Source: Branchiostoma floridae (Eukaryota > Chordata > Leptocardii > Amphioxiformes > Branchiostomatidae). From it: a DNA stretch of 64,000 nt. Below the pieces are notes generated by a model. It was not told the DNA's origin, searched no databases, and saw only the letters and a program-made list of their open reading frames with translations. Shown piece by piece: positions 1,043 to 48,400 of this stretch. How positions within the stretch are numbered: the first letter of the stretch is position 1; every line of letters begins with the position of its first letter. The position numbers and the translations under genes were made by a program. The DNA lies in assembly GCF_000003815.2 (NCBI RefSeq), contig NC_049980.1:9880360-9944359 (forward strand), given 5' to 3'.

Positions 1043-1264
1043 GCAAGTCAGAAATGCTTCAGGTTTCAGCTGACAATGCTTTGGATAATTGGATATGAAC
1101 AAAACACGATATACTGTCAAACTCGTCCTGAGAAACCACTCAAGGGACTAAGCAAAAATGGTTGCAACAAAGGCTTATCTTATAATGGTGATGATATATC
1201 TTAATACAATTATGTATACCACTGATTCACGTTGTTTGCAATTAGCCTTCGGGCATGAACTTGC

Positions 1265-1270
1265 AATAAA
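1265..1270 (+). terminator. Polyadenylation signal AATAAA for the polycystin gene
   Basis: This is a canonical hexamer about 220 bp after the polycystin stop codon, on the coding strand. It was assigned by position only. Confidence 0.55.
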
Positions 1271-1769
1271 GATATTGAATATAATACAGTTTTTCTGTCT
1301 AGGTCTTTTTTTAACTTGGTCGCTTGTATACCCCAAAAAACAAGGCCAAGATCTAGAGAGCTTGATGTGGAGGCAAGAAACTGGCAACGTCACGAGAGGA
1401 ATTGACTCCCATGGCCTACGTCACATTTCCTACCCGGGGCTGGCTGGGCTGTTTGTGGAAACGAAAACTTCAAGTCTATGCCAATACATATATAAACAAG
1501 GCATGCTGTTGAATTATTTTTGCTCTGTTTTGTGTTTCTTTTTGTCTTTTATATTGTACTGGCTGGGCCCGTTTGTGGAAATGTGACTTTAGCTTTACCA
1601 TGTACGAATATTTAATATGTGCTACATTTCTAATTTTCAACAATCAGTGGTTTCTGGCAAGATGAATTAAGTGTCCAGTCAAGGAAGACAAAATGTGGAC
1701 TAGACATACTAATGAAACAGACATCCCCCCATCACTCTGGACTAGAATATGTCCATATAAGAGAAAGAA

Positions 1770-2042
1770 TTAGCTGTACATAATGTATAATCAAAGTGTT
1801 GACCCTTTATTCAGCATCATCACCTGAAGTCTTTTATTCATATTTTTATTTTTATTTTTGCAAGACGTGTTGCAAATTTCAATTTTCCTTACACGCGCAC
1901 ATATAAGTACATTTATCTCTTAAATTTCTTAAGTTTCGCTTTTTTCCACAGTTTTAACGTTTCTTCTCGCCTTTAGCTGTACACAATGTAGAATCTTACA
2001 AAGTGTTGAAAGTTACTCAGCATCATCACCTGAAGCGTTTTA
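1770..2042 (+). repeat. Spaced direct repeat (two units of about 65 bp)
   Basis: The unit at about 1770-1835 is repeated at about 1975-2042. Both start AGCTGTACA, contain AAAGTGTTGA, and end with AGCATCATCACCTGAAG followed by a T-rich end. The copies differ by several substitutions. Confidence 0.6.
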
Positions 2043-2853
2043 GTCAAAGACTCGTCCTACATTCTTTGCCGTTATTCTTTCAATTTTCGTGACTTTTTCA
2101 GTAACTGGTACACATAACAATTACAAATGATAAAAACTCATTTTGCATATCTCTATATGCTATCAATTTTGTCTTGCCCTATCTCTCTGTGTGTCCCTCA
2201 GGATCTCCTGTTGATCGGAGGTAGACGCGCTCTGCCGTCCAACCTCTTCTTCTGCTTTGCATCGACAGGTGGGAGCAACACTAAACGTGGAAAAGAGAAG
2301 AAAAAAACTTTCTTTACTTCAGGATACGGCGGATGATGTATTTTGAATGGGTAGTGAATAATGATTTGAAGTACACAACATGAAATTGTTCAACTTACGT
2401 GAAAAAAATAAATAGTACTGGGTAAATACATATTTCCTTACACATGGTTGTGACGCCATAAAATAATCAATGATACTTTGAATTCCAAGCTACCATGGCT
2501 ATCTATCTCATTATTTTAGATTTACTGTTTTGGCAAAAAAACGTGATAACTACATTGATATGCGATAGCGAAAGGTTTTTTATTTATTTCACGAATCTCC
2601 CTTTGGTGAATTAATGTGCTAAGGGGGTGTAAACACAATATTTCGACGAAGAAGAGGAAGAATTCATAGTACATGTATCATTCTTTTCATCGGGGAAAAA
2701 AATTAAACAATCATCATAATACATTTATATACAATTACTCCGTTTTATTTTATGTGGTTTTAGCATTATATGTTTCTAGCCTTTTATCTGTTCGTTATTC
2801 ATTCCTTCATTCATTGATCCTTCCATTCATTTATTCATTCATGCTCTCATTCC

Positions 2854-25400: not shown

Positions 25401-28400
25401 GAAGGACAATTTTCCCTAAGGAGCAACATTCCTACTATTTTACGATGGGACAATGTATTGCAATGCTTATTTTATCAACTAATGTCCTTGTATATTTTAT
25501 TTTAGTAGGTGTATTATTTAGATAAGGGTGAAAAAAGGGCAATACATAACTTGATAGCAGCCAACCTGATACTAGCGGGTTCATTCCTGTTGAAAGTGTG
25601 AAATTCTAAGGCCCACTTTACATTACGTTTTTCGCGTTAGCGGGACTGGCGTTAGCGGGGCTGCGTTAGCGGGAGCCCCGTGTAAAGAGAGTTCCCGTTA
25701 ACGTAGTCCCGCTAACGCCAAATTTTCTCCCGTCCACTCCGAAGCGTACGGCCGTAGGCTCAGCGGGAGTCCCCGTCAACGCCAAACTGCGTATAAAGAG
25801 AACACGTCGGGCTCGCGTTAGCGGGAGTCAGGGTTTAGACGTTTAGCATAAAGCGCGCGCTTATTAGCATATGGCGCCAAAATGGTGAGTACAGATTTGC
25901 AAAACATTGGAGGAAAATTGCCAGCAGCGATCATGTTCATAACGCTGGGTAAGAATACAGCGATAAGAAAACAGTCTCCCGATACTGATAGTTACTTTTT
26001 TATATACTAGAAGAATGAATGTCAACCCAAAAATCAACCCGAACTACGCAGAAAAAATAGTTTTCACGGCCTGCCTTTTCCGTAATGGCCACCTACGCAG
26101 GCTCTTACGTCAATCGGGTCTGCAGTCAACCTTCAAAGCAGGCGGTATGTCAGCGAAAAATAGTCTCATTCTCACATTTTTGGACGACCTACTTTTGCAC
26201 AATTTTCGTGGAAGACCTGTAAAAAAATATACAAGTTCGATTCCGAATATTTTCTCCTGCAATACATCGTTACGTTGTACCGAAACCAGAAGCCGCTATC
26301 TCTGCAAATTTTGTATAAAGTAATCCCATTACGCGTCTCCGATTGGCCGTTGCTATGACAGTGGTGGCCGTTGCTATGACATTGGTGGGGAAATTCCCGC
26401 CACATGAACTGCTGGCAGCTTGAGTTTTTACGTACGAGGTAGTTATTATACCTGCAGGAATTGTGCGTATATTCACGGTTATTTCAGTACGTAGCCATAA
26501 TTTAGCAGGTCATCACTGAAAGAAAGGGATCTTCTATCAAACAGTTCGCTTTGAAAGGGTTTTTAAGTGCTTTTTTATCGAAAATTTTGTGGTCGAAGTT
26601 ACCGGAAGTGTCAGCGAAACAACAACGTAGTCGGGGACTTGTATTTCTCATGCAAGTCACGTATTTGAATTTTCAATCACTTGGTAGCGGTACGCAAACA
26701 AAAAATTAACGTTTGTTCAATATAACAACGTGCAGCTAAAAAGAACTGCGATCTTTACGGGTAGATTTTCACCAAGATTTTACATTCCACCGCGCGCCGC
26801 GGGTGTCCTGTCAGATTTCCGGGCGGTGTGTCTAAAGAGGTGCCGATAGCGGCGTCCCGATAACGGGAAATTTACCGCTAACGCGAAAAGCGTAATGTAA
26901 AGTGTCAATCTTCAATCACTGCCCCTCCCCTCCCCCACCCTTTCTATCAGCCCCAGCTGTCCCTAGAGTCATCTTATCCAATCTTCAGTAGTTAAGACAT
27001 GCTCCCAACCAGAACCATCCAACAGATGGGAGGCAGACAGGCTGGGGTGTAATGAGGAAAACAGCCTTTGGCACAAAACAACCTTATCCTGATTATCAAT
27101 GTTAATAGCTTTACAACTTTGTGTACTGAAATTCCTTTGTTGGAGTTGAAAAAAAAAAAGTAATGTTTTTTTGGAAAAACTGTGACGCAGGAATGTTACT
27201 GTACATACTGTACTATACGTGGTATTGTAAAGTTTTTAAAGAGATTGAGTGTGCAGATGATAAAATGTGTGTTATGTGTTATGTTACCGATTACCAGAGA
27301 CAATGGAGAAAACAGCCTTTGGAACAAAAACAAATTTATCCTGATTATCAACATTTATAGCTTTACAACTTTGTGTATGGAGGTACCTTCAACTTTCCCT
27401 TGTTGGAGTTGTAAGAAATAAAGAAGAAATGTGGTAAAACATGATTGACAGCTGTTCAGGGATACCTATGCTGTAGTGGAGTGATAAGGCTTTCTTGACA
27501 GCTACATGTAGGATAAAACCCCCAGGATGGAAACAGAACCTGATAAGATTACGCCTGTGAAAGTCAGCTTGTGAAACCACCCAAGCATTCAGGGGGGTAT
27601 TGGTCGTATTCCTGGAAAACATTGCGTCAGCTTACAAGAATATATAAATGAAGGAATAACCAGGGAACTTAATTGTCTACAAGCAGACCTTTTGACTAAT
27701 AATGTACTTGGAGTTGAAAGGACAAAACAACAGAAATTTTACAATGCCTTCATGAAAACGACAATAAAACAAATAATAAAGCCATGAAAGCTGACTGACT
27801 AGAATTTTCAACTTGTATGACCTTGATAATGAAAATATATCATCAAAATCACACAATTCTATTAATTCCATTATCAAAAATACTAGTGACAGTTTTGTAG
27901 CTCTATCTAGATTTAATACCTTGGAAAAAAGATTTCCATTGGACGCAGTTGGCCATGGCAAATAAACTCTACAACAGTACAAGTCAGTGCAGCCAAATCA
28001 TTTCGGGCTTTCTGCATAGACCATGATGGTTCCCTCAATATAATCTGGACTGATTGCAATAAAATTCTCTTCTCTTCAGTCTCATTACTTTGTGCCATGG
28101 ATTTCCCTCATTATTCCTGACCATAATCCATCCAGTCCCTCTTGGCTCTCATTTTACAGCCAAGAGCAGGGAGGGTCCCCCTTGTGCACATGGATTGTGG
28201 CTTTTATGTGAAGCTCAATGGCATATTCAGTTATTCATCCTGATCAAATGCAATCAATGGGGGGACCTAGACACCCAGTCTCTCCACGTATTTGTTCAAT
28301 AAATCCTTGAGACGTGGATGCTGGATGATTTGTCTATACCAACAGATTGTGGATGAAAGACGCACTCATAAGTGGGAACATCTATGGCCGTACACTGTAC

Positions 28401-31234
28401 ACACTGCAGGGAGTACCACTCAAATGTACATGTATGGCTGCTCTAAAATGGCTAATTCAGAGATAAAAGTTGCAACATTTCCCTACATTTATCCTTCCAT
28501 GAATTTTATAGGCTAGCCCAATCAAAATAGCTGGGCTGCCACGAGAAGGTCATGCTGGGAGGTCTCCGTATAAATGTATGACATGCAATTTGTGTTTGAT
28601 AGCAGCACAGTGCCACCCGACTGAGATTCAGGCATACATCACCAATGTTCCGTATGCTGAATGAAGATTCTATTTTGGGACCATCTGTCTAGTTGACCTT
28701 CCAGTGCTCTCAAGTTACCCCCTTTCCCAATTACAAATATGAATCGGTCTCTCTCAACTGCTTTCATTCAATACAATTTGCAGGGGGCAGTAATTACAAC
28801 AGAAGCACTTTGTATGGGTGAGTTAATTATTTAGTAGTAGATCACGATATATTGGTCAGGTCATCAAATCAGGGGTAAAAGACAATCCATACAGACTGGT
28901 GCTCTCCACCACCCAAATCACAGCACTGAGTGAGCAATACATTTAATTTTGTAAATCTTAAAGGGGCAGAAATTCTTCGCCCCCATTTTCCATCATTTAC
29001 AAGATGGTAAGAATCTTTGCTGAGTTAGATATGAAATGTACATATTGACTGAAATTTTGAATCTAAAGAAATTCTGTCAATTTTCCAAGGGTGGTGATGC
29101 TCCCTTGAAAGAATGAACCTAGCTTGGAGTCCAGTCTTGCTCACTTTAGTCAGCTCCCGAAGGGTAGCGACATTCAGAAGCAGAGCTAAAGCGAACAAGT
29201 TGTGACCTTAAGGCTGGACTCCAGGCTAGAATGAACCTACTGCGCCAAGAGAACTTCCTCCCAGCCTTATCAATACAAGCACACACTGCTGGTACATGTA
29301 GTGCTATCTTGAAACCTTGAATTAAACCTTGAATTGTACACTTATTCTTTCTCAGCAAAATCAGCAAAGGTTTGATGTGAAACTTGTAACATCTATGACA
29401 TTTCAATACATACATTGCATGATTCACATTAATGATTAAGGGATGATGTGGTCTTTACCAATTACATAGACTAGGTCTATAGGTCTGACTAATGAGCTTA
29501 CTACTGGGGATAAGCGGATTATGTTGCCAATACAACTTAAGTGATAGAATATCTCTACTGTTAGACCCAGGAGATGGAAGATCAAAAGGAAACGTTTTGT
29601 GGACAGACCTGCTTCAAGAAATTTCTACTGTTTGACCAAGTTGGTTTGACAGAGGGAAACATGTATTTGTTCAACTCCAAGGAATCAAATAATTGCGCCT
29701 GGTAGGAATTAACATATCTTAACATAGATGGTCAGCAAAGGTAGCATCACACAACAAGCAAATATGTGCTATAATCAACACTTCGGTATTCTTGTGTTCA
29801 CATTACAGATACGTCTCCAAGCTTAAGTTATGCCTCTTATTTTTTACATCTTTTGAGAATTTGACATCACAAACTACAGACAAGTGAAGACATCAAAGTC
29901 TGACATGTGTTGACAGGGACGATATTTAGGGGAGGAGGTCCTACTAGAGGAAAACATCCCCATTAATGATTGACATCTTGCTGTGAGAAGAGGGAAACAT
30001 GAGAGGAGGGGAGGAACAGACAGGATTAAGCCTGCTGCCTGACTACACAATTGCAGATACTGCCCTCTTTTTGAAGATAATCCACCATAACTTTTATGGG
30101 ATTAGCCAGACAAGCAAAAATTTAACATTTTCACCTTTAGGCAATTTTTCACAATAAAGATTTATTCGAAAGCTGTGTGTCCTGTTTTCCTAGACAAATT
30201 GCATTAATGTTTATTCTTTTGTCATGTATTACAATGAAATAGATTCTTAAACTTTTAAAAGGAATGCTCATTAGCTTAAAAGCTCGGACACAAACTGCAT
30301 CAGACACCCAGGCTCTGACTTAATTCCTTTTGAGGGTGGCTGTCAACAGCACAGTTGTGTTTGCTATCTAACAAAGACTTTGGCTGCTGTTGGCTTTGAT
30401 TAGCCAGCTACTGCAGCAGATGCCTGTCTCCAACCCAAAGCCGTCTGTTGTGACACAAATGAATGCAGACAAATCCCAAATCCTTGTCATCATAGACACA
30501 CTTCGGGCACAGAGCAACAGAAGGGGTTGCCATTCCTTCTATATTTCTACTATCACACAACATATGGGATTCAATTTAAAGGCAAAGCGCTGTAGCTTTC
30601 TGTTTATTGGAAGGGAAGGGGAGCGGCGCGTTGTGCATATTTACACTGCATACTAAATACTGACAAACCAAAGAGAAAGTGAATATAGGGGTAGGGCCAT
30701 ATTTTTTTCAGGTTGCTCTGACAGCTATTTGCTTTATAAACAATAGGGGAAGCAATGTTTTACAACTTTATTATCGCCATGTTTACAAACATCACAGTGT
30801 ACGTTGTAAACATCGGGAAATTTGAAAGCTTTGTTTACCTTCATGGGTTTGGACACGTGCGTGTTTTCCGGGGTGCTGTGGATGTTTTCTGCCGACCTTT
30901 TGATGACGCCGTCACTGCCACTCCCCGTGCTGGACACGGAGTAACTACTGTCACTCTTACTGCTGCCCGTTCTTGTCGGAGTGGAGTGGTGACCAACACC
31001 GCCGTCTCCTCCAGACGACTTCCTGCGCGCATCCCCTCCTTCGCACACGGCGCTATAATTCCCCGGCAGTGCATCCGCCGGGTCGGCGTAGTTATCGTCT
31101 TCTGAGTCTCCCCCCGATAACCTGGGTCCAACTCTAGGCTTCGTCGAGTTTTGGTCGTAATAGTCGGGACGTGGAGGCTGTGGCGGCGGCTTTTTCCCGA
31201 CCCCCAGCCCTAGATGTTTCAGCAACTTAGCCAT
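16459..31234 (-). CDS. SHB/SHF-family SH2 adaptor protein, 6 coding exons
   Basis: Coding exons on the minus strand are 31234-30839, 22295-22142, 21100-20795, 17863-17680, 17203-17084 and 16645-16459. Splice sites are consensus and phases match, giving 448 aa. The start MAKLLKHLGLG followed by PPPQPPRPDY matches the conserved N-terminus of SHB/SHF adaptors. YSDPYD motifs (two), YADP, YEDPYEP and RPAEDYDQPWEW are the family's tyrosine-phosphorylation and docking sites. A C-terminal SH2 domain (about residues 347-445) has WYHGSISR, the phosphotyrosine-binding Arg in FLVRNSES, and GAEHMKLRYP at the end. These proteins link activated receptor tyrosine kinases to downstream effectors in the cytoplasm. 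A Gln tract (Q8) lies before PDEDTRPAEDY. Which vertebrate paralogue (SHB, SHD, SHE, SHF) is closest cannot be decided here; a pre-duplication orthologue is likely. Introns 1 (8.5 kb) and 3 (2.9 kb) are large and contain transposons. Confidence 0.93.
17442..17639. mobile_element. MITE with TTACTGTAAATGCA termini
   Basis: TTACTGTAAATGCA at the left is matched by TGCATTTACAGTAA at the right. The following left arm (AAGTTTGCGG) and the right arm (CGCAAACATAAAACTACTGCG) are also partly complementary. It lies in an intron of the SHB-like gene, just upstream in gene sense of the first SH2 exon. Confidence 0.65.
18001..18068. mobile_element. MITE family A, copy 5 (degenerate, 68 bp)
   Basis: The left end is TAGCCTGGGTA and the right end is TACCTAGGCTG. 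Flanks TGCATTCCA (17992-18000) and GGCATTCTA (18069-18077) match at 7 of 9 positions. This is the most diverged of the five copies in the window. Confidence 0.6.
23462..23530 (-). mobile_element. Possible LINE 3' end, minus strand
   Basis: Read on the minus strand it ends CACAATAAAGGTCTTCGTTC followed by a CATT-type repeat. This resembles the ends of non-LTR elements with simple-repeat tails. No coding part is visible. Confidence 0.35.
25614..26903. mobile_element. 1.3-kb inverted-terminal-repeat DNA element
   Basis: The left end CACTTTACATTACG continues TTTTTCGCGTTAGCGG; the right end is its near-perfect inverted copy (CCGCTAACGCGAAAAGCG continuing TAATGTAAAGTG). Subterminal regions repeat GTTAGCGGG and its complement many times within about 190 bp on the left. 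The element is far more GC-rich at its ends than the surrounding intron and lies inside intron 1 of the SHB-like gene. No clear target-site duplication is seen. An internal open frame at 26015-26323 (+) resembles no family I know, so autonomy is unproven. Confidence 0.75.
27052..27411 (+). repeat. Two-copy direct repeat of about 100 bp
   Basis: About 27052-27149 and 27300-27411 share GAAAACAGCCTTTGG, CTTATCCTGATTATCAA-type and TAGCTTTACAACTTTGTGTA segments, and both end near TTGTTGGAGTTG. The copies are diverged. It is intronic in the SHB-like gene. Confidence 0.65.
29120..29228. mobile_element. MITE family A, copy 3 (109 bp, perfect 9-bp TSD)
   Basis: The termini are TAGCTTGGAGTCCAG and CTGGACTCCAGGCTA. 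GAATGAACC flanks both ends exactly (29111-29119 and 29229-29237). Confidence 0.85.
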
Positions 31235-32383: not shown

Positions 32384-35300
32384 ATGGAGAAAAGTTTGGT
32401 TCCTGATGAGGTGAAGAAATTCATACGTGCAGTACTGCTATCTGAGCAAGGGGGCGTCCCTGTCAGGCGACTTTGTATGGACTACCGGAACCTGATCGGA
32501 CATGTGCTGGACTGGAGAGGCCTGGGATTTACCAGGCTTGAAGACTTTGTCAAGGCTATGCCGGATGTCTGCAGGTAAAAAATGAAACTGAACAAAACGG
32601 ATGTTTAAAAAATGTACTTCTTCAATTGCCAGCATATTTTGTGCAATTTTCTGGGCGGTGCAACAATACAAAGTTATCCAGTTGGACCGCACTAGTTTGG
32701 GATTTGTAGATTCCGTGTAATTAACATCAGTGTGCAATAATCTGTTTTGCAATTAGCTGGCTTCTACTGTAGTTGTTTACACCACTTTGGTAGCAGAAAA
32801 AGAAAAGAAATAGGCCTAACTTGAAATGAAGTTTTATGGCTTCTACTGTATTTGTTTAGCTGGCTTCTACTGTATTTGTTTACACCACTTTGCAAGCAGA
32901 AAAAGAAAAGAAATAGACCTAACTTGAAATGAAGTTTTGGTACTCCACAGAATCATAGTTGAACTGTTTCATGAGAATTTTGTCCATATGGAGTTTGTTT
33001 GATTGCATGTTACCAGACTGGAAGCCTTTGGACCCGAGAAGGAACTGAGAGTTTACGGGATAGGTGACCCTGACTCTTTCATGTCCAGTTTTGCTATTAA
33101 GGCCCAGACTGTCACAGGACCACCTAAAAAAAGTGAGTGAAATATAAAACAGCCTTTCTTTGAAAGAACATTTTTGTCCCCTGTAATCTTGTGATCCCTA
33201 CAGTTTTCTATGTCATTTCTGTAAATTGTGTGTAATTATTTGCCTGTGTGTGTGTGAGATATGTGCTTCTTGTGACATGTACTTGTTGCAAGGTATTTTC
33301 TATGTTTTCTTCTTCAACATTTTCCACTTGCTATTAGCTGTCTTTGATAATACATGTACTATGATGTACTAGTAGATAAAAAGGGATGATTCAATAGCTT
33401 TCCTGACCAATTAATATCTTGTTATTCTTTTAAATGCTTCAGCCTTTACACTTTCAAGGCACATAGTCATAGTTTAGTCACATTAAAAGTACAAACATTT
33501 ATGTATGCCGCATTCTGCTATATTGGACATCAACTTTACATATAAAACCATCTGGTGAACATGATTGATAGTGACCAAGTTATATATAATTGGCATAATT
33601 TGTAAACAAGTTTATCTTGACAAATGTGTGACTTATATATAGTTATATTCAATAACTTACTAAGTTAACTATCTTGATGCTGCGTACTGTGTAGCTAGAA
33701 ACAGGGACAAGAGGAAAGGCCAGAAGTCGTCATCAGCTGAGAAAGGATCTGCCATGGGTAGCACATGTAATGGTAATATTATTCATGTTTCTAAACTGAA
33801 ACCATCCGTTGTATCTTTATAGGAAGATGTGCAGGGAAAGGCTGATCAATGCTTTAGAGCAGTAAACCAACACAGTTTGCACAGTAAAAAATACTCCTGC
33901 TTTTCCTTGATGAAATTTATTAACACCTGGATTTTTCATTATGCTGCAATATTAATGGAGATGTGGAATGTGCTATTATCATTTAAGTTATTTTAACATG
34001 TTTTCTACTTTGTTTGGCTTAAGCCTGCTCCCATAACTACATTGTATCATCACATTGACATGTTAGCAGCATAGTGTCCAATAGAACTACGGTACTCTAA
34101 ATTCTAATACATGTACTGAACAAGGCAGTAGCCAAGCCAATTTGCATGTTTGGCAACAAGTGGTAAACTGTGTACCTGTGCAGTGTACCTTTAAAATCTC
34201 AAGCACGGACTACTAGTACTTCACCATCTGCTACAGAATTGAACCGTATTGTCAGCTATCATATTCTATACTTTGATACCAAGTCGGAGAATCAGCTATG
34301 GTACAACTGGAAAGTGAGATACCTGTAGTTTCAAATTCAAAAACAAAGATTAATGATCATTGAGGTAAAAAAGAGTGGCAAAATACTATCTATAATTTGG
34401 ACCTACACAACTGGTACTATTTCAGTACCATCAGTAAATATTCTAATACATGTACTGAACAAGGCAGTAGCCAAGCCAATTTGCATGTTTGGCAACAAGT
34501 GGTAAACTGTGTACCTGTGCAGTGTACCTTTAAAATCTCAAGCACGGACTACTAGTACTTCACCATCTGCTACAGAATTGAACCGTATTGTCAGCTATCA
34601 TATTCTATACTTTGATACCAAGTCGGAGAATCAGCTATGGTACAACTGGAAAGTGAGATACCTGTAGTTTCAAATTCAAAAACAAAGATTAATGATCATT
34701 GAGGTAAAAAAGAGTGGCAAAATACTATCTATAATTTGGACCTACACAACTGGTACTATTTCAGTACCATCAGTAAATATCAACCAGTCTTTGGTAATGT
34801 TAAATGATTTTGTGATGTTGCAGGTAATGGGGAGAATCCCTATGGCCTCCAGCCGGACCACCTTGGACGGTACAGTGTCTGTATAACCAGGAGGTTTGAC
34901 CTCTCAGATCAGGTGCTGAACCCATTGTAATCAGCTTGTTGTTCTGTTGTTAATTTCTTAAGGATATTCTGAAGATTGAACTGTGTTGAACAGGAAGTGA
35001 ATCATGTACCACTCCTACTTATTAATGTTTTTAAAAAGTTGTTTGTAGAAAGTTGGAAGGACACTAGTCCATTGGGCTGCATAGCCAGCTTGAGTTGCAT
35101 ATGCAACAAGAACTTTGCTCCACACAGCATTTTATGAACACGACAGTTGATCTGAATGAGTCAACTTAGTGTGGTTTACAGCTAACATATATCCATATAT
35201 AAATCAAGTCTCCCATTGGTACATGTATGTACAGATCTGTCTGAATTTAGCAGTTCATGGTAGTAGTTGTACCTGAGGAAAATGGTCTTGTGATATAGTG

Positions 35301-38300
35301 AGTGTACACCCTTGTCTTGTTCTTGGAGTAATATTTATTGTTTTATTTTCCATGTAGGATATCAAAGGTTTCTTCTCTGCAGCAGGAAAGGTGCAGGATG
35401 TCCACCACTCAGAGAAGTATGCATCTGTTATCAATTTATTAGCAGTCCTTACAACTAAAAAGTTACACATTTGATAATTATCATATTTGTTTATGCTGTT
35501 ACATTACATTAGATTAGTTTAGTTGTAGTAGTGCATAGTTCAACGTCACTGTATACAATGATTGCCATACATTGTACATGTTACAATTGTCGCGCAATAA
35601 AGTTTGACTGAAATACATTGTATTCATAATGTTTTTACTTCTTCGTTCTTCTTCTCCTGAAGCCATCTTTAAATGGATTCATCTCAAATTGCAGATACAT
35701 GTATTGGCCTTTCTAGTTTGATATGCTATAGTATGTATTCCTGATGCATAAGAATGAATCAATTGCTCTTTTGATTGACTTATAAAATGTCTAGTCTATC
35801 TGCTAAAAAGTTAGATTGTTAGTTACCAAGTCAATTAGATTTTCCTCTGGTTATTTACAAACAGAATTTTTCCGTGTTACATCCATCTGTCTTTGTATAG
35901 CCTGAAACACACTTACCCGGGATTCATACATAGAACACTCCAGCAAGACCTGATCTGATGACTTATCATGAACTACATTAATTTTGTACTTATCTCCATG
36001 AGTTCCATCTGTCTGAAGTGTTTTGCCTAGTAGTACCTATTACTACATACTGTAATAACTTAAGAAGCTATAGTTGGGTTGTTCTTATATTTGGTGTACC
36101 TCTTAATGGCTTTCTTTAGTACTGCAGCAGAACCTTTCTTTTTTGCATCTTCGGTTATCTGCTAGGGTCTTCATATTATGGTGAAAGCTGATAGACTTTG
36201 ACAGTGGGCAAAAAGGTTGTACAAGTTTTGGCTCCCTGGCTGTCATTTTTGTCATTTCTACAATGTGTGCTCCTTTCATTTCACAGGATGACCTTTGTTC
36301 GGTATAACACTGTGAGAGAAGCTACAGCAGCAGTGGACGGATTACCACCAGTTTTGAAGGGAAGGGACATCAGTGTTCAACCTGCCAAGAACATGATCAG
36401 ACATGACCATGTCAGAGGTGCTTCAAAGGAAACTGCTGGGAAATTGTTGACACAGAGACCTGCCATTGTCTCAGGTCTTGATTTGTTCTGTTCTGTTGTA
36501 CATCTTTAGTTTTATTTAGAACATGTTATCACTTTCATGTAAGATACAACAACATTGATAATAGATTTCATCATTTTCTAACAGGACTTTCGCTGGCATT
36601 TTTAATCTGCAATTTCAATTTTCAGTTTATCAGCTTAAATGGTTGCAGGTGTTATTACAAACATAATTATTATATACATATTTTGACCATGAATAAAAAA
36701 TCATAAATTATCATATAGACTTGGACTATGGATAGGAAATGAAAAGATTACATAAGTCACTAGGCGTAAAATCATTTTTTAGGTAAAAGATCTCCAGAGT
36801 GTAAAGCGGAAAGCCCCACACAACAATATCCAGTCCACGAGCTTGTAGTGACTCAGCTCACCAGGGATACGACGGAGGTATTATACATTTCTACTTTGTT
36901 TGATTGTTATCACTTGTACAATGTGTTTTGTTTGTGCTGATATAACCTTGCTATTGAATACTTTCAGGCATCAATGAATGCTTCATACATGACAAATTGC
37001 ACACAATGTCTTGCCTTAGATTTAGCAAGAAAAATCAAAGCCCCTACCCCTAAGCTATGTTTAATGATTGTCCAGGATTTTGTTATTGTTATGATCATGT
37101 TATAAGTACTATCACAGCATACTAATCTTTGCAGACTGCTTGAAGAATGTGTTCAGACTAACAGTGTTTTATTACCTCACCCCAATAGAGTGAAATAATG
37201 TTTTTGTTTATGTAAGTATGTGTGTGTGCGTTTGTGTGTCTGTGCTTCTGACTGTTTGACTGATTTCTTTGTTCTCATTGCAGGAAGAAATCTGGACTTT
37301 GTTCGCTCCCTTTGACGTGGCTAATGTCAGAGTTAAGAAACAAGGAGGAGAGGAGTATGGGTAGGTTCAAAACATTCCATTGGTTCCAAGTGCTTACAAT
37401 TGTTGTAGCAGAATTAAAATGTCAAGCTTACAATTTACAATCGAAAATATTGATGTTTTGCATATTGTGTAAGCTGTGTGAAAACATATAACAAGACTTA
37501 AGATGACATTGACAGTTTTCTGTTGTATCATAGACATCTTTCTTTATCACTCAACACTTAACTGCCCCCTTTAGCCATGCCTTCGTTCACTTCACATCAG
37601 CCAAGGATGTAGACAAAGCCATACAGACCCTTGACAACTCTGTCCTCAATGGACAACACATAAAGATGAAGCTGTCAAGGAGAGCTCTGGAAGCTCGGGG
37701 ACTCAGGCTTGGAACTGAACAGCGCACAGGTGTGATTGTATATGAAAACAGTGGAGTAGCTGTAGCACCATGTACAAAAGACAACTCAGGTAACTGTCAT
37801 TATTCAAGATTTATTTGTGTGATAGCAATGGTTTTCATTGTTATTGTGTGTTTTCTAATAAACATTTTGGAATGTTTTATATCAACATTTGGCATCTTCC
37901 CCTTATCTTTAAATCGTTGCAGGTACATTGTACCAATACATGTTTTCAATTCCTTGTTTGATTACTTTGCATAGTTAGACAAGATAGCATGTCAGATCAT
38001 TTTGCAGATGCTGGTTTGAGGCTGCCAACTCCAGTCCATCCCAAAGGTTCTTCATCTACAGAGCAGTGTAACAAGCAGGGACCCACACCAAAGTTCATGA
38101 GGTATGTTCAGGCAACATAATAACAGCTAAAGCTAAACAGATATGGGGAGTGACCGATCACAATTCATGGGTGTGCCCAGCAAAATCACTTCAACATATT
38201 GCACTAGGAGACCAACAATAGAATATGTCCCAATGATATGAAAATCATTGAGAAAGAGGGATAAAGTTAAACTGTTATCATTACAGAACCAAGCTACCAG

Positions 38301-41300
38301 GCTCTGTACAAAAATTTACAATAGACATGCTAGTGTCGTCAAAATGAAAACAGATCTACAGTTGATGTCATCATCAGAAGACAGACAGCAACTGTCCAGG
38401 CTATGCAAGATGTACTAGACTATGTATGACTAGCATACTGTTGGGACATAACAACTACATGTACTATGTATCTAATACTAGCTTACATATGTACACATTT
38501 CCTAATACCATTTGTTGTATCACAGTTCCAGTACCATGGAACAGATGATGCATGAGTGCAGTGGTGACCAGGGAGTGAACACAGCTCCTACCCCAGCAGC
38601 CAGCTACCCAGAGGAACTCAGTGTGATAGTCACAGAGGTGGTGGATGGCTGCCACTTCTGGGGCCAGGTTAATCAGGAGGTTTGTGCAGTGCTTTTAATA
38701 GTTGTTGAGAATTAACTAGATACTGCATTACTTCATTTGCATACCGGTAGTTTATATATAGCAGATATTTCAGTGGAAAGTTCTCTCAGACACTGCAGTA
38801 TTGAAATCACTGTTGTCAAGCTTAGTTGGGCAACCAGAAACTCGGTGATAATTGAAAATAGATCGTGTAAAATCCAATGCAGACCACAATTAACATGTAG
38901 CTGTGCATATTAACCGTCCCACCCATGGTGTATAGAGCCTACTATTCTAAGCTGTGCCCTAACTTTGTGCTACCGTACTTATCCCAGGGGAAGAACAACC
39001 TGTTAGAACTGCAAGAGCTCCAGAAGGGTCTGAACCAGCTGTGTCCTGCCCCGCCCCTCCCCCCTGGAGACAGGATTGGGGCAGCACCTTTTGAAGGGGA
39101 TTGGTACAGGTATGGTGCCTCTATACATATAAGCATCCCAGTTCAGGGCATTGTTAGACTTCCTTAGAGTCAGAATATTAGTCTTACTCTTAGGGCTTTG
39201 TGCTTTTGACTATCTTGTATTCTGATTACAAACTGCTTTGTACAGTATAGTCTAAAACTTTTTTTCGGAAATGGCCAAAAGTTGATGCACACGCAGATCT
39301 CATCCAATTATAATCAGATCAACATGACCTTATGTGCTCATAACACTCAAGTCTTTGTTGTTAAGGACAAACTTCTTTGCCATTGTGTAGAGTGTGGATA
39401 CAGGAAGAACTCCCAGAAGACCAGCTGCAGATGGTGTTTGTGGACTATGGCAACTCTGCAGTATTACCACGCACAGAGGTTTCACCCCTGCTCATTCCAC
39501 AGTTTTGGGACCTTCCACCTCAAGCAGTACCCTTTAAACTAGCAGGTTGGTATCTCTGAAGGCATTCAACAATCATAAAGCTTAGTACAATGCTAAACTT
39601 TCTTCCAAGTTCACACAAAAGTGCACATAAATCAAATTTTCAACAACCACTGTCGCCTTCTTCACGATCAATACTAATGACCAATCACTTTAGAATGTAA
39701 ACTTGTCAAACATGCCAGGAAGTACTAGGATTACTACCAACACAGATGAGCTTCCATGATAATCATAAAGCATGTCTTGTGTGCATTTGTATTATATATT
39801 GTTTCAAACCTCAGAGTGTTCATTTCTTGGTTCATTTGTTGTCCTGGATTTTAAATCCTTGAATTTTCATCTACAGGACTGAGCTCTGCCACAAGCAATG
39901 GACATGACAAGCTGAAGGAGATACTGAGCTGGCAAGTGGTCTCAGTGAAGCAAAGTCAGTCCAGAACATGCGAGGTGGGTTCATCGGGATACAACGGTGT
40001 ATCTTGGTATAAATTCACGAAACTAAAGGCATTGTAGTAATAGTCTTGAAATAATTGTAGCCATTTTTTTTTCAGTTTTGGTAGTAACGCTAGTTCACCT
40101 TTAACCATTGTGTAACCTATATCCGTTGCTTTTAAAAACGTGGTATTTGGGGATATCATGTCAACGGACGTTGGTTTAAAATTGCAATATTTTCACTACA
40201 TTGCAGCTTAAAACTACCACCTGTCGACTTGATGTGCCTAAGTGCACTGTTCTGAAAAACAACGGATATAGGTTACCCTGCGGATAAAAGGGAACCAGTG
40301 TTACCTCTTTACTTTGATGTCATGACAATGTGTGTGTGTGTTAACTTTTTGTTTCCTCTGAGAAAACCTCCATTTCACTCTTTAATCCCTGCCAAAATAA
40401 ATAGATTTACAGCACCTTATAATTTGGCTTCATTGCAAACAGGAAAAATGACATATTGCGATGAAATTAACTCTCGATTCTTTAATACATATGTATATAT
40501 AACAGTATATTGTTACTTCAACAGCCCCATATTCTAGAAGTGGAGGTTTACATTCCAGATGCCACAGACTCTACATCAGTCAACTCCATGATGAAAAGGG
40601 AGACATGTGAAGAGGGTCATTCATTCCCAGAGAAGACTAATAAAGGTGTCACACAAGAAGAACCAAATTGCCACCCCAACATCAGCACGTCTGTGCCAAC
40701 AGTAGAAGACAGAACAAGGGAGCACAGTATTTCTAGACAAAGAGCTGAGAAAGCCACTACAGGTAAAACAGGAGGTATAGGAGATATTTTCTCTAACAGC
40801 ACAACTCTAAATCAAGAAAGAAAGCATTCCTCAGAACAGAAAGAAGCTGGCAGAAAGTTTGACAACGAGACATTCCAGCAGAGAAGTGGTGAAAGGAGTC
40901 ACCAGAAGTTTCAGTCACCTTTCCTGAGTGAAAAGGAAGAAGCAGTGTTGAGGAGGATAAGTGAAGGTAACCAGAGAGTGTACCACACAGAGATGGGAAG
41001 AAGACACCAGGAGACACCAGTAGGGCAGCAGCAAAGGTTGATTGGAGGACAGCATAGTACAGTTCAACATCAGCAAGGACTGCTGGGTACACCGATCAAC
41101 AAATATGCCCCTCAGCTTCTGTTTAAAGGGAAAAGGTTTGCCCTCCTGGCAAAGGTTTCTGAGGTACGCTTCTTCCAACTTACAAGAATGATGGACACAA
41201 GCATTAGTGTTTCTTACTATATTGTAACAAGACTTAGAGTGGCCTTTGAAGTACATGTACTTAGAATCTACTAGGTTCATGCACTAAAGAAAGCTCTGAA

Positions 41301-44136
41301 CTTAGCCTACATCAAATTTTCATATCATTGTAATAATATACACGTAGTCTTTCTTTAGGGCTTCACATCTCCTACTCTTCAAAACACAGTAATTTTTTTT
41401 TTTTTACTCAATGGTCACCACGTAACAAGGCCTGAAGGCCACTCAAGGTTACGGGTTACATGATTGGAACTGTAACAGCAACTCTTCGCCCTAGGTCAGA
41501 AACATCATGATTGAGACCAGCCCAATTGCTCACTATGAGTGAGGACTAACTGACCCAATAGGCAAAGCAGGGGTTACGAGGGCTGTGAGTAATGTTCCCA
41601 ATGTGTGTATTGCTGTTCATGACAGTTGTGTGTGTTTTCTAGGTGGTGACACCAGACCGGTTCTACATCCAGTCTGCAGACAGCCCCCTGCTGAACAAGG
41701 TGTCTCAGAGTCTCCAGGAGGCAGCTAATAAAAGGACAGCACAGGTAGGGAGGAATGTCAGATTGGTTTATACTGGCATCAGTTTGTAGTTGTTCCTGTC
41801 TAGAAGTCTGGACCTTGGGATCTATTGAAATGGCCCATTGGATTTGATACTGTTCAAATTGACAGAATTTATATGAGAGATCTTTCAAATTGATCTCGTC
41901 AGTGTCTTTTGGTCATCTTTATTAAAGAAGTTCTTATAGTATGCTACCTTCAGGCATTTTTCCAGTATACTTGTCTTTATGTTGAGCTTTTATATTTTTG
42001 TTATATCTTTTTACAATTAGGAGTTGTCAGATTTGAGGACCCTGTGTTACGAGACTGGTCAGGTGATGTGCACTTACAGTGAGAAACACCACATGTGGAG
42101 GAGGGTGCGCATCGACGGTATTCTGCCAGATATGGTGAGTCTTAACTATACTGTAAAGGAATAGTAACAGTAACAGTATAGTCTTAACTATACTGTGTGA
42201 TTTTGCATAGTCAGAATTCATTTGTGAAAAAGAGATTATTTTTGAAAGTAGTGAGAAAATTCAATTGTAATGTAAGATTGACGAAAACGTTTAATATTCA
42301 GATATGCTTTTAGAAACCTTGATGTCTCTCCTCAGATTAATGTGCAGCATGTGGACTATGGAACCATGGAGCTGACTCAGCTGCACAACCTGTTCCCCCT
42401 CCCACCTGACATACTGTCCGTCCCCATACTGGCCAGACCAGCGTGCCTTGCCAATACTGCCCCCCTCCCCAAGGATGGCCACTGGACAGAGGGAGCCAAC
42501 GCCTTCCTCAAGGGGCTCACAGCCAACAAGGTCAGGAAAGATGTCTCAAACTTACATCTGGAAAAGAGTTCGTCTTAAATCTATATGCATTCATTTATTA
42601 GACTTAAGGGAAATGTAACAGTTTCATTCAGTTCTGCTTCCCCCCCCCCCCCCCCCCCAACTTCTCTAGGTCCTGTTTGCAGAGGTAACTGGAGAACAGG
42701 CAGGGGACAAGCTGGTGGTCACACTGTGGAGCTCCATGGACAAAAAAAACAACCTCTCCCAACAGCTCATGGATCAAAACTATGCGATCTACAGTCAGCC
42801 ACTTCCTGTCACACAGATGCCTTCACAGAACCCAAGCTTTACCCAGGGGAAACCACTACCAGTACTTCTGCCTACTCCCCAGCCTCCGCAAATCAGCAAC
42901 CAGCCCTTCTTTGATCAACAACCACACTTACCCATCCCACAATATCCACTGTTTACCCCTCATGTCCCTTACCAACATCCTAGGCCAAAACACAGGATGA
43001 AGGTGGGGGAAAGGTTCTCACTACTGGGCAATCAGAAGACACCGGCCCCATCGTTGGGAGGAGAAGGTGCCTTTAAGATAATTGTGAGAGCAGAAGAAGG
43101 GAAGGAAAGAACCACAAGTAGAGGAGAGAAGATTGAGCCTCCTACAGGTCAGTCCTCAGACAGTGCTCAGGGAAGATATGTCAAGGACCACAATTACGGA
43201 GCAACAGACATGAATGGAAACAAGGGCCCCAGTTTTGCAACAGTGCAGCCCAGTAAGCTTGTTTCACACAATGTCAGAAGCACTGGAAAACAATACCATC
43301 CTGGCAACAGCAATAGAGCAAGCAGGAACAGTGGGAACAAGTTTGGAAAAGGTGGCAGTCCCCTATCTCTTGGTGCACAGAGAAACATCCTGCACCAAAT
43401 AGTCGGTGATGTACAGGAGACAAGCAACAAGTCTCAGCCAAACTGTGAGTCTGGACAAGCAAACAAAGTGGAAAAGGAAAGGAGAGACTCTGGTGCCAGC
43501 AATATATCAACTGAGCTGGAAAACAGGTTGGTGTTCAAATGAAAAAAAAGTATTTCTTCCTTGATAGGGGTGGGTACCTGACTACCGGTACAGAAAATTC
43601 AGGTCCAGGTCCAGGCTGTTTTAGACCAAGTTTGACTGTGGAGACTTGGTAAAAATGACTATAAACTCTTGGACCTTGTTAGCCCCCAAACACTAGAACG
43701 CCTGTCGGTTTAATCTGTCCATTATCTAATCAGTCCAAAGTCTGATGCACTGATTTTTTTCAGGTTGGGTTTTTCTGGACCGGTCCAAGAAGAAAAAAAA
43801 AACATTTTGTACCGGTACCCAACCCTATTCCTAAATTAGACTCTATTTAGAGTCAACATGTGTAGCATGTTCATTTGGTAACATCAATGTGGCACCATCA
43901 CAATAAGATTGCTGAATGTTTGTTTGCACAGATTGCAGCAGCTTGTTCAGGTAGACACAGGCGAGGGGAGAGAAAATGCAGAAAACTGCACACCAACTAG
44001 TGAGGGTCTACCTACAAACCAGCACCAGAAGGGTCTGCTCGAGAGCGAGTTCAAGGGATGTTTGCCGACCACCAGTGGAATGTCAGCAGTTGACATCCTA
44101 ACCTCCCAGCTTATTGAACTGCACACAGAGGAGTAG
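32384..44136 (+). CDS. LOTUS-RRM-RRM-Tudor-Tudor protein, 20 coding exons
   Basis: Exons: 32384-32574, 33017-33132, 33695-33772, 34824-34912, 35358-35416, 36287-36474, 36783-36877, 37284-37360, 37575-37789, 37975-38101, 38526-38679, 38988-39109, 39391-39545, 39877-39974, 40525-41163, 41643-41744, 42021-42134, 42336-42530, 42670-43526 and 43932-44136. Phases agree throughout and give 1291 aa. Domains: LOTUS/OST-HTH at about 6-90 (GVPVRRLCMDYRNLIG, LGFTRLEDFVKAMPDV); RRM1 at about 143-212 (YSVCITRRF, MTFVRYNTVREA); RRM2 at about 258-333 (ELVVTQLTRD, HAFVHFTSAKDVDKA); extended Tudor 1 at about 442-600 (VFVDYGNSAVLP); a low-complexity linker; extended Tudor 2 at about 793-990 (VQHVDYGTMEL); then a disordered tail. 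LOTUS domains bind RNA or DEAD-box Vasa, and Tudor domains bind methylated-Arg Piwi tails, so a germ-granule/piRNA role is inferred. TDRD5/7 have LOTUS+Tudor and TDRD10 has RRM+Tudor; this protein combines them. Exon 10 has a second in-frame acceptor (38008). Exon 4's donor (GTGCTG) is weak. Confidence 0.9.
32754..32942 (+). repeat. Intronic tandem duplication of about 105 bp
   Basis: AGCTGGCTTCTACTGTA through AACTTGAAATGAAGTTTT occurs at 32754-32837 and again at 32859-32940 with few differences. A partial third start lies between them. It is in intron 1 of the LOTUS-Tudor gene. Confidence 0.8.
34101..34778 (+). repeat. 339-bp tandem duplication, apparently identical
   Basis: 34101-34439 and 34440-34778 match base for base as far as I can read, both starting ATTCTAATACATGTACTG and ending CCATCAGTAAAT. 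It lies in intron 3 of the LOTUS-Tudor gene, 45 bp before exon 4. The identity implies a very recent event or an assembly artefact from two haplotypes. Confidence 0.9.
35555..35612 (+). mobile_element. LINE 3'-tail fragment
   Basis: ATTGCCATACATTGTACATG followed by TTACAATTGTCGCGCAATAAAGTTT. It matches the end of the LINE remnant at 8590-9056. It is intronic in the LOTUS-Tudor gene, and its AATAAA should not be read as a gene terminator. Confidence 0.6.
39272..39340 (+). repeat. Interspersed repeat shared with window start
   Basis: GAAATGGCCAAAAGTTG, then CACACGCAGATCTCATCCA and ATAATCAGATCAACATG, parallel bases about 39-110. The copies are diverged. The element class is unknown. Confidence 0.5.
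40084..40304. mobile_element. MITE family B, copy 1 (about 220 bp)
   Basis: The left arm is GTAACGCTAGTTCACC with TAACCTATATCCGTTG. The right arm is CAACGGATATAGGTTACCC followed by AAAGGGAACCAGTGTTAC. The two arms form long imperfect inverted repeats. The same design is at 60168-60402. It is in an intron of the LOTUS-Tudor gene. Confidence 0.75.
42640..42658 (+). repeat. Poly-C tract used as the polypyrimidine tract of exon 19
   Basis: A run of 19 C lies just before CTTCTCTAG and the start of exon 19 at 42670. A homopolymer this long is slippage-prone, so splice-site strength could vary between alleles. Confidence 0.8.
43565..43827. mobile_element. hAT-like MITE (263 bp)
   Basis: The left end TAGGGGTGGGTACC and the right end GGTACCCAACCCTA are inverted, with ACCGGTAC and GGTCC elements mirrored inside. 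Flanks TTCCTTGA (43557-43564) and TTCCTAAA (43828-43835) match at 6 of 8 positions, as expected for an old hAT target duplication. It lies in the last intron of the LOTUS-Tudor gene. Confidence 0.65.
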
Positions 44137-45426
44137 TAACATGTTTTTTTTTGTAGTTAAATTTGTACTTGCAGTCTAACTAGAATTGATTGTAATAGAA
44201 ATTTGACCAAGGGTATCTAGAGATGTGTACTATGCAAGCTAACCATCTAACAGTGCTTAGAGATCTAGAGCACCCCAGGTTCAGTTTAAAGATTGTCCAA
44301 GAGATAGACCTTTGATTTTTTGTGCTGAAATTTTTGTGAAGCTATTTGATTGACGCACACTCAATCTGTAATCATCCTGCTTGATAACAAAGGTAATTGT
44401 TAAATTGGTAGCTGTCAATTGAAGATAAATTGTGTGAAACTTTGTCAGGAAAAGGATGGTGCTGAAATGCAAGTTACTGCCTGATCATTGTTCTGTTCGA
44501 ATTTATGTCAGCAATATGTTGGAAGATGTTTTGTAGCAGTTCTTGTACGAATGAGACTTCTCTTTCTATGCCATTGTTTTATGATATTACATGTACTAGC
44601 CTTTGCACTTCAGCAGATTTCTAGTGGTGACCTTGAAGTGAAGCTCCAAATATGTTTGTACATCTTACATGTACGATGATCCCTTGTTTATGTTTATTAT
44701 TTATTCAAGAATAGCCCATTGTTATAGAACTAGCACCCTTAGCTTACAGACAGTATGCTTTGACAGTTGCCACCAAATGGTATCAAAACCAGTGAAAAAA
44801 TTAGCTGTTTGTATTTTTTTCTTTGTCAAGGAACCCACTTAGTTTGGTTTATAATGGTGGTTGTGGCACAAGATTCTATATCTATTATACTAACAGTTGT
44901 TAAATTTGTTATTTTGTCCTGTACATTCCATGAACAGAAAGAAAACCAGTAGTTATAGATGTATTATTTATTCACACAGACATTAGTTTAGTAGTTGTTC
45001 TATGATGCTGAGTACTTAACTTTGCAAATATAACCAAGCTGTTACAAAATACATCAGATATTTGTCTTTTTTAGCCTCTTATTATTTGGACAAAATACTA
45101 AATGATATCGAGTCTCTAGACTAGTGTATAATCACAATTATGTTCATCACCAACTGCAATTACAACTTAAAGATTTCATTTCCCAGATTGAAGTCTACTG
45201 TGACTAATTAGAATTGCTTTTCATGAATAATGATTTCAATTGAAAAATACATTTGTATAAAATAAAGTTTTCTTTAAATCCCTTCAAGATTTTTCCATAG
45301 CCATTTACAAATCTAAATTGAAACATGACTTGCAGAAATCATTGAATTAAAACAGATAATTACACATGCTGCAAACATGATAACTCTATCCCTGAGTATG
45401 AGAGTATCCCAGTGTGCTGTGTTGGA
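44137..45426. other. Convergent 3' UTR region of LOTUS-Tudor gene and DOLK
   Basis: A plus-strand AATAAA at 45261-45266 may end the LOTUS-Tudor transcript. Minus-strand AATAAA (TTTATT in plus) near 44967 could end DOLK. If both are used, the 3' UTRs overlap. The interval is AT-rich and I see no gene in it. Confidence 0.5.
45261..45266 (+). terminator. Candidate polyadenylation signal, LOTUS-Tudor gene
   Basis: AATAAA on the coding strand about 1.1 kb after the stop codon. It was assigned by position only. Confidence 0.4.
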
Positions 45427-48400
45427 TCATGATGAAAGCCCACTGCTGAAGAGTGCATACATGTAGAGAGGGGTCACAATGTTGTCCACCTGGGAGGTGA
45501 AGGCTTCCAGTAATGACGTCAGACACACGGCTGTCACTATGGGGATCAAGTTGGCTGTGAACCCTGGCTGGATCCCTACAAACAAATAAAGCATAATTTG
45601 AAAAAGATGCCTGAATACATGTACAATGTACATGTAGGTCAAATTGTATAGTTACTGTTCTACCATGATATAAGAATCTTTTAGCCTGAAAACGTAAGAT
45701 CCCAAAGTTTAACACAGGCATATTTTCTGCATAAAAAGTTTTTATATGTCACTTTGACACAATCATGTTGGCATTGGCCATGAGATACACAGTAATCACA
45801 TACAAACTTCTCCACTCACCAAGTAAACTCAGTGTGCAACAGGCTGCCAATTGTGCTACCACAGCAGCCAGGGTGCCCTCTACTGTTTTCTTTGTACCTG
45901 TAAGAAAAAAAAGAGCTTCAATATTACAGTTACAGCAGTCTCTACATCAGGTATACAACCTTTTCTCTAAATGTATGCATAGGAAAAAAATGTATTTCTA
46001 AAAATCACTAGATGATTACACAGTGATTTAGAAATTCTGATATGGTGAAGGATGTAGATATCCAGCATACATTTTATACTGAATAACAAAGCATGACTAT
46101 ACATGTATGCAAGTTTTGACCCTTTAAATCACAATACCAGCTATATCCTTGTTGAAATCTTGGCAAATCATCAGAAATTACTCTAAATGCAGAAAAAAAA
46201 TTGTAGTGTGATGCCAAACCTTGAAGTTACTCATATGCACACTTGTAAACATTACAGTAAAGTATATCTAATGATCACAATACCTGGCCATCTGTGTCTG
46301 CCCAGCTTTGATCCAATGACAGAGGCAGCAGTGTCCCCAACTCCCAAGGAGATGACACCACTGTACATCGCCAGCTCTGTACCTAGAACAATAACTTTGC
46401 TTTACAATATCGGGGTACGGATACTACTGGCATTACGGACAAACGGTACTAACGCTACTGGGGGTACAGACACTACTGCTGGTACAGACACTACTGCGGG
46501 TAGGAACACTACTGGTGGTATGGACACTACTGGGGCTACGGACACTACTGGGGCTACGGACACTACTGGGGCTACGGATCTAACGAAGGTAAGTCTCAAC
46601 CTAACGCATGCCACAATGCTGATGTTGGGGGTGGCTAAATAATCACGTTTCCTAGCTGCCCTTTTCCGTTCAAGGGCAGTTTGATAGTCTGGTATCAAGA
46701 CCTACTATTAGATAGCTGTCAAATCTCTGCAAATTTATCATAGCTGCAGAATCATGTCTTCCTGCAAAAATATTTCCATTAGAGGATGTGGAGATTTGGC
46801 AGCTATAAAGTTTAATACATGTGTAGTGTGTAGGTTTGGATAACTGGGTAGCAGTTTGATACAGGAAAGGGCAACTGCAACAAGGTGAACCATCTATCTT
46901 CTCCAAACATCTAGCCTTGTACATTGAGAAAGTGTGATGAGGTAAATCTGAACCATACTAAGAGAATGTCTTGTTATGTTTTTTATGCAAACATCTTACT
47001 TAAGCAACAGCTCAACCTACTCTATCTATTAGATTACCTATTGTGTATGCAGAAGGGTACAGCCATAGAGGCAGGGAACAGCCCAGCAGAAGGTAGATGT
47101 GGGTGAGGATGGCCACTCCTCTGTCCTTCTCATCAACAAACACACGCAGGGATGTGTGTAAGGATTCACCAAAGGGTTGGATTCTGTACATCCGCACATA
47201 CTGTGGAACACAAACAACAGGCATTGATCACACCCATAACAAGATTGAAGTAATTCAAAGAGCAGAGCCACAAAAACAAGTTTTCCACTCTCAAAATAGA
47301 AGACTATAGTATACATGTAGGTTATTCTGAACTCAAAGATATGACTACTACTTAAGGTAAATATATGCATGTTCAACTTGTGACAACTAGTTTTCAGGGC
47401 ACATGGTAAGTCACTGATTGTCAGTTGTTATTCCATAAAGTCAGCTGTTTACCAGTTGTTTATACATGTACCTGGAGGCAGGATAAGCTGATCTGCTACA
47501 AAGCATCTTGTTCACACTTAATGATGACACATACACATGTATATGAGTCTTCTTTGCTTTTGGCTATGGAAATAAGATCTTTCAAACATAGCCTGGGTGC
47601 CATCCTCCAAAGTAACCATTGTCTCAATATTTTCCCTTGCTATCTGTGGTTAGCAAGTGAAGATTGAGCCAGCAGTTATTACAGAGAATGGCACCCAGGC
47701 TATCTAAAACATGCTTACTTCCAGCAGAATAAAGGCTCCCAAAGCTGCTACAGATCCTATGTACAGCAGCTGGGGATTCCGCATCAGTCCAGGTAAGAAA
47801 ACTGCTATGGCGATCAGATGGAAATACTTCCTCACAATGGTGGAACCTGCACCTGCAGGGTTGGTCCTGTTCTGCCTGGCAACTGTTGCTATGGCAACCA
47901 ATGTCATCACACTCCAGTAGCCAATCAGAGAGATCTAGAAAAGAGATGACCAGAAGAGCTGGAACTTTGAAGTACACCTTTTTTTATCAAAAGGGAACAT
48001 TGATTTTAGAAAAAGCACATTGTACATTGACCGATTGCATTCAGTAGGTCGTGAGTTTGATCCTCGGCCGAGTCATACCAAAGACTTTAAAAATGGTACA
48101 TGCTGCTCTCTCTGCTTAGCACTAAGCATTCAGGAAAGAATATGGAAGTTAAACACACACCACTACCAGTGGACTTAAGACTCCTACTGTAGTGATTGCA
48201 CAAAGTTGTGTGGCTCAGGGCTACTGATATGGAGATGGGTGCCGCCCTATGTGCCATCAAGCACAGGAAGGACTTTGACATTGTTCATGTACAAGTAACT
48301 GATAGAGAACAGGCAGAGATGGTCTTGGGTTAAGCTTCTTGAAACAGCCTTCAGCTATACTTACACTGCTGTCACAAGCCAGTATGAAGCCCATGAGCCA

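Follow-up and report, generated by a model that had tools for sequence, protein, structure and literature searches.

The window analysed here, 64,000 nucleotides of Branchiostoma floridae DNA (C2:9880360-9944359; the genome searched alongside it comprises 431 contigs with 513,431,437 bases in total), carries on its forward strand a gene for a single protein with a LOTUS domain, two RRMs and two extended Tudor domains. The model, spliced by hand from the genomic sequence, consists of 20 exons, which run from an ATG at position 32384 to a TAG at 44136 and encode 1280 residues. All 19 introns have GT..AG borders, and the terminal TAG is the sole stop of the spliced frame; the alternative frames carry 56 and 65 stops. 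The unbroken phase of 20 exons described in a first-pass annotation is thus borne out, but the protein length given there, 1291 residues, is not. Intron 3 contains a tandem duplication (34101–34780) with a period of 339 bases and 341 consecutive identical positions at that offset.

Exons 1–2 (32384–33132) encode the LOTUS (OST-HTH) core (Pfam residues 8–68) and a possible C-terminal extension (residues ~81–94), and exon 3 (33695–33772) encodes a linker. RRM1 is made up of exons 4–6 (34824–36474; Pfam residues 154–197, motif borders ~143–212) and RRM2 of exons 7–9 (36783–37789; Pfam residues 261–328). Exon 10 (38008–38101) is a linker, which joins the RRM half of the protein to the Tudor half. 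Extended Tudor 1 occupies exons 11–14 (38526–39974; Pfam core residues 428–545) and Tudor 2 occupies exons 16–18 (41643–42530; Pfam core residues 788–902), both placed by Pfam and by alignment to SND1. Exon 15 (40525–41163) contains the end of the first extended Tudor domain, a linker rich in Glu, Gln and Arg, and the start of the second one. Exon 19 (42670–43526) completes the latter and continues into a Pro-, Ser-, Gly- and Gln-rich tail without a Pfam domain, and exon 20 (43932–44136) supplies the C-terminus and the stop codon.

Scanned at full length, the protein matches Pfam profiles for all five domains, with two stretches each for TUDOR (1.2e-32) and RRM_1 (1.1e-18) and one for OST-HTH/LOTUS (8.3e-11). 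Their order is LOTUS, RRM1, RRM2, Tudor 1, Tudor 2, and their borders are close to those first proposed. When scanned as separate pieces, the LOTUS domain (1.9e-12), RRM2 (RRM_1, 6.1e-14), Tudor 1 (1.3e-18) and Tudor 2 (2e-14) are recovered as well. RRM1 is real but weak (RRM_1, 2.9e-05, 24.3 bits versus a cut-off of 20.7), and its best match among solved structures is at 0.096. Pfam names no family in the 161-residue linker piece or in the C-terminal 316 residues, and its scan of the whole protein contains no MYND domain. Both Pfam and a genome-wide LOTUS search find one LOTUS domain in the protein. Its most similar solved structures are LOTUS domains of TDRD7 (PDB ids: 3rco, 3.1e-09, and 2lh9, 4.8e-09).

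We take an aromatic cage together with an Asn, at the positions defined by the SND1 alignment, to mark an extended Tudor domain that binds symmetrically dimethylated arginine. Tudor 1 has both (F487, Y492, F509, Y512 and N514), with the first cage aromatic, F487, displaced by one residue. In Tudor 2, the cage positions are occupied by R851, H867 and T872, and no such cage is formed in the alignment. Judged from these residues, the methyl-arginine cage appears to be kept in Tudor 1 and degenerate in Tudor 2; because of this degeneracy, the initial idea of two Piwi-tail-binding Tudors is weakened, with Tudor 1 still fitting it and Tudor 2 not. A canonical RNA-binding RRM has three RNP aromatics. 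RRM1 and RRM2 keep one of the three each (F181 and F301, respectively) and are not canonical in this sense. The direct RNA recognition that had been proposed for the protein is weakened because a single canonical aromatic is left per RRM.

Residue A162 of Oskar contacts Vasa, and the available part of PMC5458760 gives Ala at this position for Oskar and various TDRD7 proteins and Ser for TDRD5. In our own column mapping, Ala16 of the LOTUS domain aligns with A162. The same source describes, for Vasa-binding extended LOTUS domains, a C-terminal α5 extension with Leu or Ile at the Oskar 228 position (PMC5458760). Residues 81–94 can be aligned by eye with an extension of the TDRD5 type, but Ser87 or, if a gap is placed, Met86 then occupies the Oskar 228 position. 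From its sequence, Vasa binding by this LOTUS domain is plausible.

The neighbour of this gene is an SH2 adaptor gene on the minus strand (16462–31234), which is apparently arranged head to head with it. Its putative ATG (31234) is located ~1.15 kb from the ATG of the LOTUS-RRM-Tudor gene. Its other parts are ORFs at 22050–22400 and 20607–21164 and SH2 exons at 17077–17205 and 16462–16656, and the ATG exon probably belongs with these SH2 exons 14 kb away. When joined, the last two exons match the Pfam SH2 family (1.6e-17), the only family that Pfam names in this gene; its ORFs taken singly yield no Pfam family. The other ORFs display motifs of the SHB family by eye, and the gene looks to be of the SHB/SHE type. 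Among solved SH2 structures, PTPN11 is the closest to it (2.2e-18), and the best 60 of 198 matches include no SHB-family chain, so that its filing under SHB is a recognition and not a test. With the SH2 query, this gene yields matches of 135.6 and 79.8 bits, and no match elsewhere in the genome exceeds 36.5 bits among 33 scored candidates; two further matches of exon size (48% over 46 residues and 55% over 40 residues) score 28–29 bits.

Among ten neighbour ORFs of the window, Pfam names a protein kinase alone. The kinase exon (9535–9762, minus strand; 1.3e-10) is accompanied by a 1112-residue frame rich in short repeats (2857–6192, minus strand). Exon-like ORFs at 45389–49221 (minus strand) resemble dolichol kinase by eye, with no Pfam family in the three that were scanned, and an open frame at 155–1039 (plus strand) resembles a polycystin-type channel by eye.

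The gene and its architecture have been in print since 2013. PMC3735472 (EvoDevo) describes 15 Tudor gene models in B. floridae; one of these, Bf-Tdrd7, is backed by a cDNA of complete frame (bfga025n02, KC516712, 5,120 bp, 1,279 residues), which encodes a LOTUS domain near the N-terminus, an RRM and two Tudors. Judged from this domain set and the length (1280 versus 1279 residues), the window gene is almost certainly Bf-Tdrd7, although one RRM is mentioned in that part of the paper and our model has a second, weak RRM. Bf-Tdrd7 rules out an undescribed architecture, and the initial view that no protein with all three kinds of domain was known does not hold. According to the same source, the transcript is detected maternally only and is colocalised with Vasa mRNA in the germ plasm, in agreement with the germ-granule role first suggested for the protein, and B. 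belcheri Tdrd7 behaves like Bf-Tdrd7. The name was based on a neighbour-joining tree that comprised 16 sequences and grouped the protein with TDRD7 (PMC3735472). The primers are stated by the authors to have been designed from B. floridae. Their Nanos primer has a single site in the genome, identical in 30 of 30 positions, so that the genome is that of an amphioxus, most likely B. floridae. The Bb-Tdrd7 forward primer agrees with exon 14 in 20 of 24 positions (15 shuffles reach 15–17); the reverse primer reaches 18 of 26 at best (15 shuffles reach 15–18) and has no clear site, and neither matches the genome with three or fewer mismatches.

The genome contains nine LOTUS matches at E ≤ 1, which form four clusters: five on C13, two on C8, one in the window and one on C17. 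The C13 gene reads as MARF1-like by eye. The C8 LOTUS is identical to that of TDRD5 (PDB id: 3s93) in 26 of 60 positions and has Ser at the Vasa-contact position; with a further LOTUS and Tudor exons, the C8 gene reads as TDRD5-like. These Tudor exons were picked out visually and by a home-made profile, and are absent from the genome-wide Tudor search. The C17 LOTUS is weak (exon pieces of 23.5 and 22.6 bits versus a Pfam cut-off of 23.8), but its identity to TDRD7 3rco is 34/63. With its LOTUS exons, three Tudor matches and more sequence that looks LOTUS-like by eye, the C17 gene reads as TDRD7-like. Caution is due here, as the LOTUS pieces fall just under the Pfam cut-off and tropomodulin, which we take to be a neighbour of TDRD7, is found on C3 and not on C17 in amphioxus. 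The first LOTUS exon on C17 is tandemly repeated at a spacing of 123 bases (C17:14260001-14270000, local 8431–8790, minus strand), with three copies, two of which run into stops, and exon-like ORFs of the same gene (local ~950–2050, minus strand) resemble a double-stranded-RNA-binding domain by eye.

The window LOTUS has identities of 26/64 to TDRD7 3rco, 19/61 to TDRD5, 23/61 to C17 and 25/61 to C8, so the best LOTUS match to TDRD7 in the genome is at C17 and not in the window. When TDRD7 and TDRD5 are each assigned the best-matching amphioxus LOTUS, the former goes with C17 and the latter with C8, which leaves the window gene without a partner. Scores of the home-made LOTUS profile for the window, C17 and C8 sequences are circular, since it was built with them, and are given no weight. 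RRMs are found at one of the four LOTUS clusters, that of the window, with a home-made profile that is a weak control: RRM1 of the window scores 0.097, and no RRM is found at the MARF1-like C13 gene. The absence of RRMs elsewhere proves little because the profile misses RRMs expected at C13. This RRM scan covered eight of 12 genomic Tudor places (omitting C1:7.18, C11:3.49, C2:20.69 and C2:24.85 Mb) and includes a gene on C3 at 25.80 Mb (C3:25797001-25807000, local 1339–5004, plus strand). In the C3 gene, an exon that resembles an RRM (Pfam 0.0011, 19.2 bits versus a cut-off of 20.7) is followed by one Tudor and then coiled coils, and the gene is STK31-like by eye.

In human, TDRD10, SHE (an SHB-family gene) and UBE2Q1 share one chromatin loop at IL6R, as described in the available part of PMC6302745, and a chromosome-1 list names TDRD10 and SHE together with the five families examined here (PMC4849743, seen in part). 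Four of these five families (C1orf43, UBAP2L, JTB and CRTC) are on C2, the contig of the window, and INTS3 is on C4. C2 makes up 6.84% of the genome, and the probability that four or more of the five families would fall there by chance is ~1e-4; these are family-level matches because there are further human members of the UBAP2L and CRTC families.

Taken as a whole, we consider it probable that the window holds a single germline gene, almost certainly Bf-Tdrd7, that is most likely a LOTUS-retaining pro-orthologue of TDRD10. The SH2 neighbour, which looks SHB/SHE-like by eye, the four families on C2 and the better TDRD7 candidate on C17 make this relationship probable. Orthology itself, as it follows from the position and the shared RRM and Tudor make-up, stands at somewhat better than an even chance. 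We call the gene a probable pro-orthologue and do not file it as TDRD10 because it has two Tudors and a LOTUS domain. The relation to TDRD10 with a later loss of LOTUS, one of two origins first considered, agrees with our own reading, though it is not proven. Several observations speak against it: the published TDRD7 tree, INTS3 on C4, tropomodulin on C3, the second gene with an RRM and a Tudor on C3, and TDRD7 as the best solved LOTUS match. No such reading of the gene and no paper on TDRD10 together with a LOTUS domain, an RRM and a Tudor were found in the open-licence literature. The papers found there on TDRD10 with LOTUS, to the extent of their available text, have no link to amphioxus, and one of them equates TDRD10 with SMNDC1; TDRD10 is likewise absent from the best 5 of 1,212 papers ranked for amphioxus and Branchiostoma. 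What may be new here is the probable TDRD10 orthology.

The gene could instead have been derived within cephalochordates, by addition of LOTUS exons to an RRM-Tudor gene, and would then be uninformative about the ancestor of TDRD10. We regard this as unlikely, though it fits several observations and none made here speaks directly against it. The combination of LOTUS, RRM and Tudor is documented here for amphioxus only, and the Tudor of the C3 gene starts like Tudor 1 (35% over 57 residues). The existence of the C3 gene means that an RRM-Tudor module occurs without LOTUS, and the linkage of SHB and TDRD10 is compatible with such a fusion. Still less likely, and in our view improbable, is that the gene is amphioxus TDRD7, as named, with RRMs gained. 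The tree and the name (PMC3735472, in its available part), the best solved LOTUS matches and the Ala at the Oskar A162 position, shared with Oskar and various TDRD7 proteins (PMC5458760, seen in part), argue for it, as does the presence of two Tudors, as many as zebrafish Tdrd7 is listed with. Against it stands the C17 gene, with its closer LOTUS, its LOTUS-like sequence and its three Tudor matches, and the single LOTUS of the window protein, compared with the three listed for zebrafish Tdrd7. That a LOTUS-RRM gene and an adjacent Tudor gene were misjoined in the model is very improbable. Beyond the usual uncertainty of hand-spliced models, nothing favours it, and a single open frame extends over 20 exons with GT..AG borders. 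In the published full-length Bf-Tdrd7 cDNA, a single frame of 1279 residues spans LOTUS, RRM and both Tudors, and if this cDNA derives from the window gene, the two-gene objection falls; a pair of misjoined genes is largely refuted by these two observations.

Under the preferred TDRD10 relationship, the protein would serve as a maternal germ-plasm scaffold, all binding partners of which are inferred. Its LOTUS domain may dock and stimulate Vasa, and extended Tudor 1, with the cage intact, would bind a Piwi protein through its symmetrically dimethylated arginines. The cage-less Tudor 2 might bind another partner or unmethylated Piwi, as proposed for Bombyx Vreteno, and the RRMs might bind RNA with low affinity or serve in protein contacts. 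On this view, LOTUS, an RRM and a Tudor would have been lost on the way to vertebrate TDRD10. We lean moderately towards the corresponding history, in which TDRD10 began as a LOTUS-RRM-Tudor germ-plasm scaffold, only RRM and Tudor were retained in vertebrates, and Bf-Tdrd7 is misnamed. If so, TDRD10 would have started as a LOTUS-Tudor gene, the third of its kind after TDRD5 and TDRD7, the germ-plasm role of amphioxus 'Tdrd7' would belong to TDRD10, and comparisons that use Bf-Tdrd7 as TDRD7 would need correcting. TDRD10, the function of which is listed as unknown in the available part of PMC12147562, would gain a testable ancestral function through its maternal, Vasa-colocalised amphioxus counterpart.

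Similar to the window protein, vertebrate TDRD10 has an RRM and an extended Tudor (a table row of PMC12147562), but it is listed there with a single Tudor and without LOTUS, a comparison made by description. In human, TDRD10 shares its locus with SHE (PMC6302745, seen in part); the SH2 gene that adjoins the window gene looks to be of SHB type by eye, with PTPN11 as its best solved match. TDRD7/Tapas resembles the window protein in its combination of LOTUS and Tudors, its germ granules and its LOTUS structure, the nearest solved one, and the window protein has the N-terminal LOTUS that is a feature of TDRD7. Unlike the window protein, TDRD7/Tapas has no RRM listed in the sources as available, and zebrafish Tdrd7 has three LOTUS domains versus one. 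TDRD5/Tejas also combines an N-terminal LOTUS with Tudor, but in zebrafish, as far as described, it has one Tudor and three LOTUS domains versus two and one here. It carries Ser at the Vasa-contact position (PMC5458760, in the part available) where the window LOTUS has Ala, and the C8 gene fits TDRD5 better. MARF1 shares RRM and LOTUS with the window protein but has several LOTUS domains and no Tudor; membership in this family is ruled out by the lack of a LOTUS array and the presence of two Tudors. Membership in the Vreteno family is ruled out too, as Vreteno has a MYND domain and the Pfam scan finds none here; no LOTUS is mentioned for Vreteno in the available text. Yet Bombyx Vreteno, similar to the window protein, is described there as having an RRM and several extended Tudors, only one of them with an intact aromatic cage. 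Its caged Tudor binds methylated Ago3, its RRM crosslinks RNA, and the suggested ligand of its cage-less Tudors is empty, unmethylated Siwi. By analogy, Bombyx Vreteno would be the nearest working model for the window protein.
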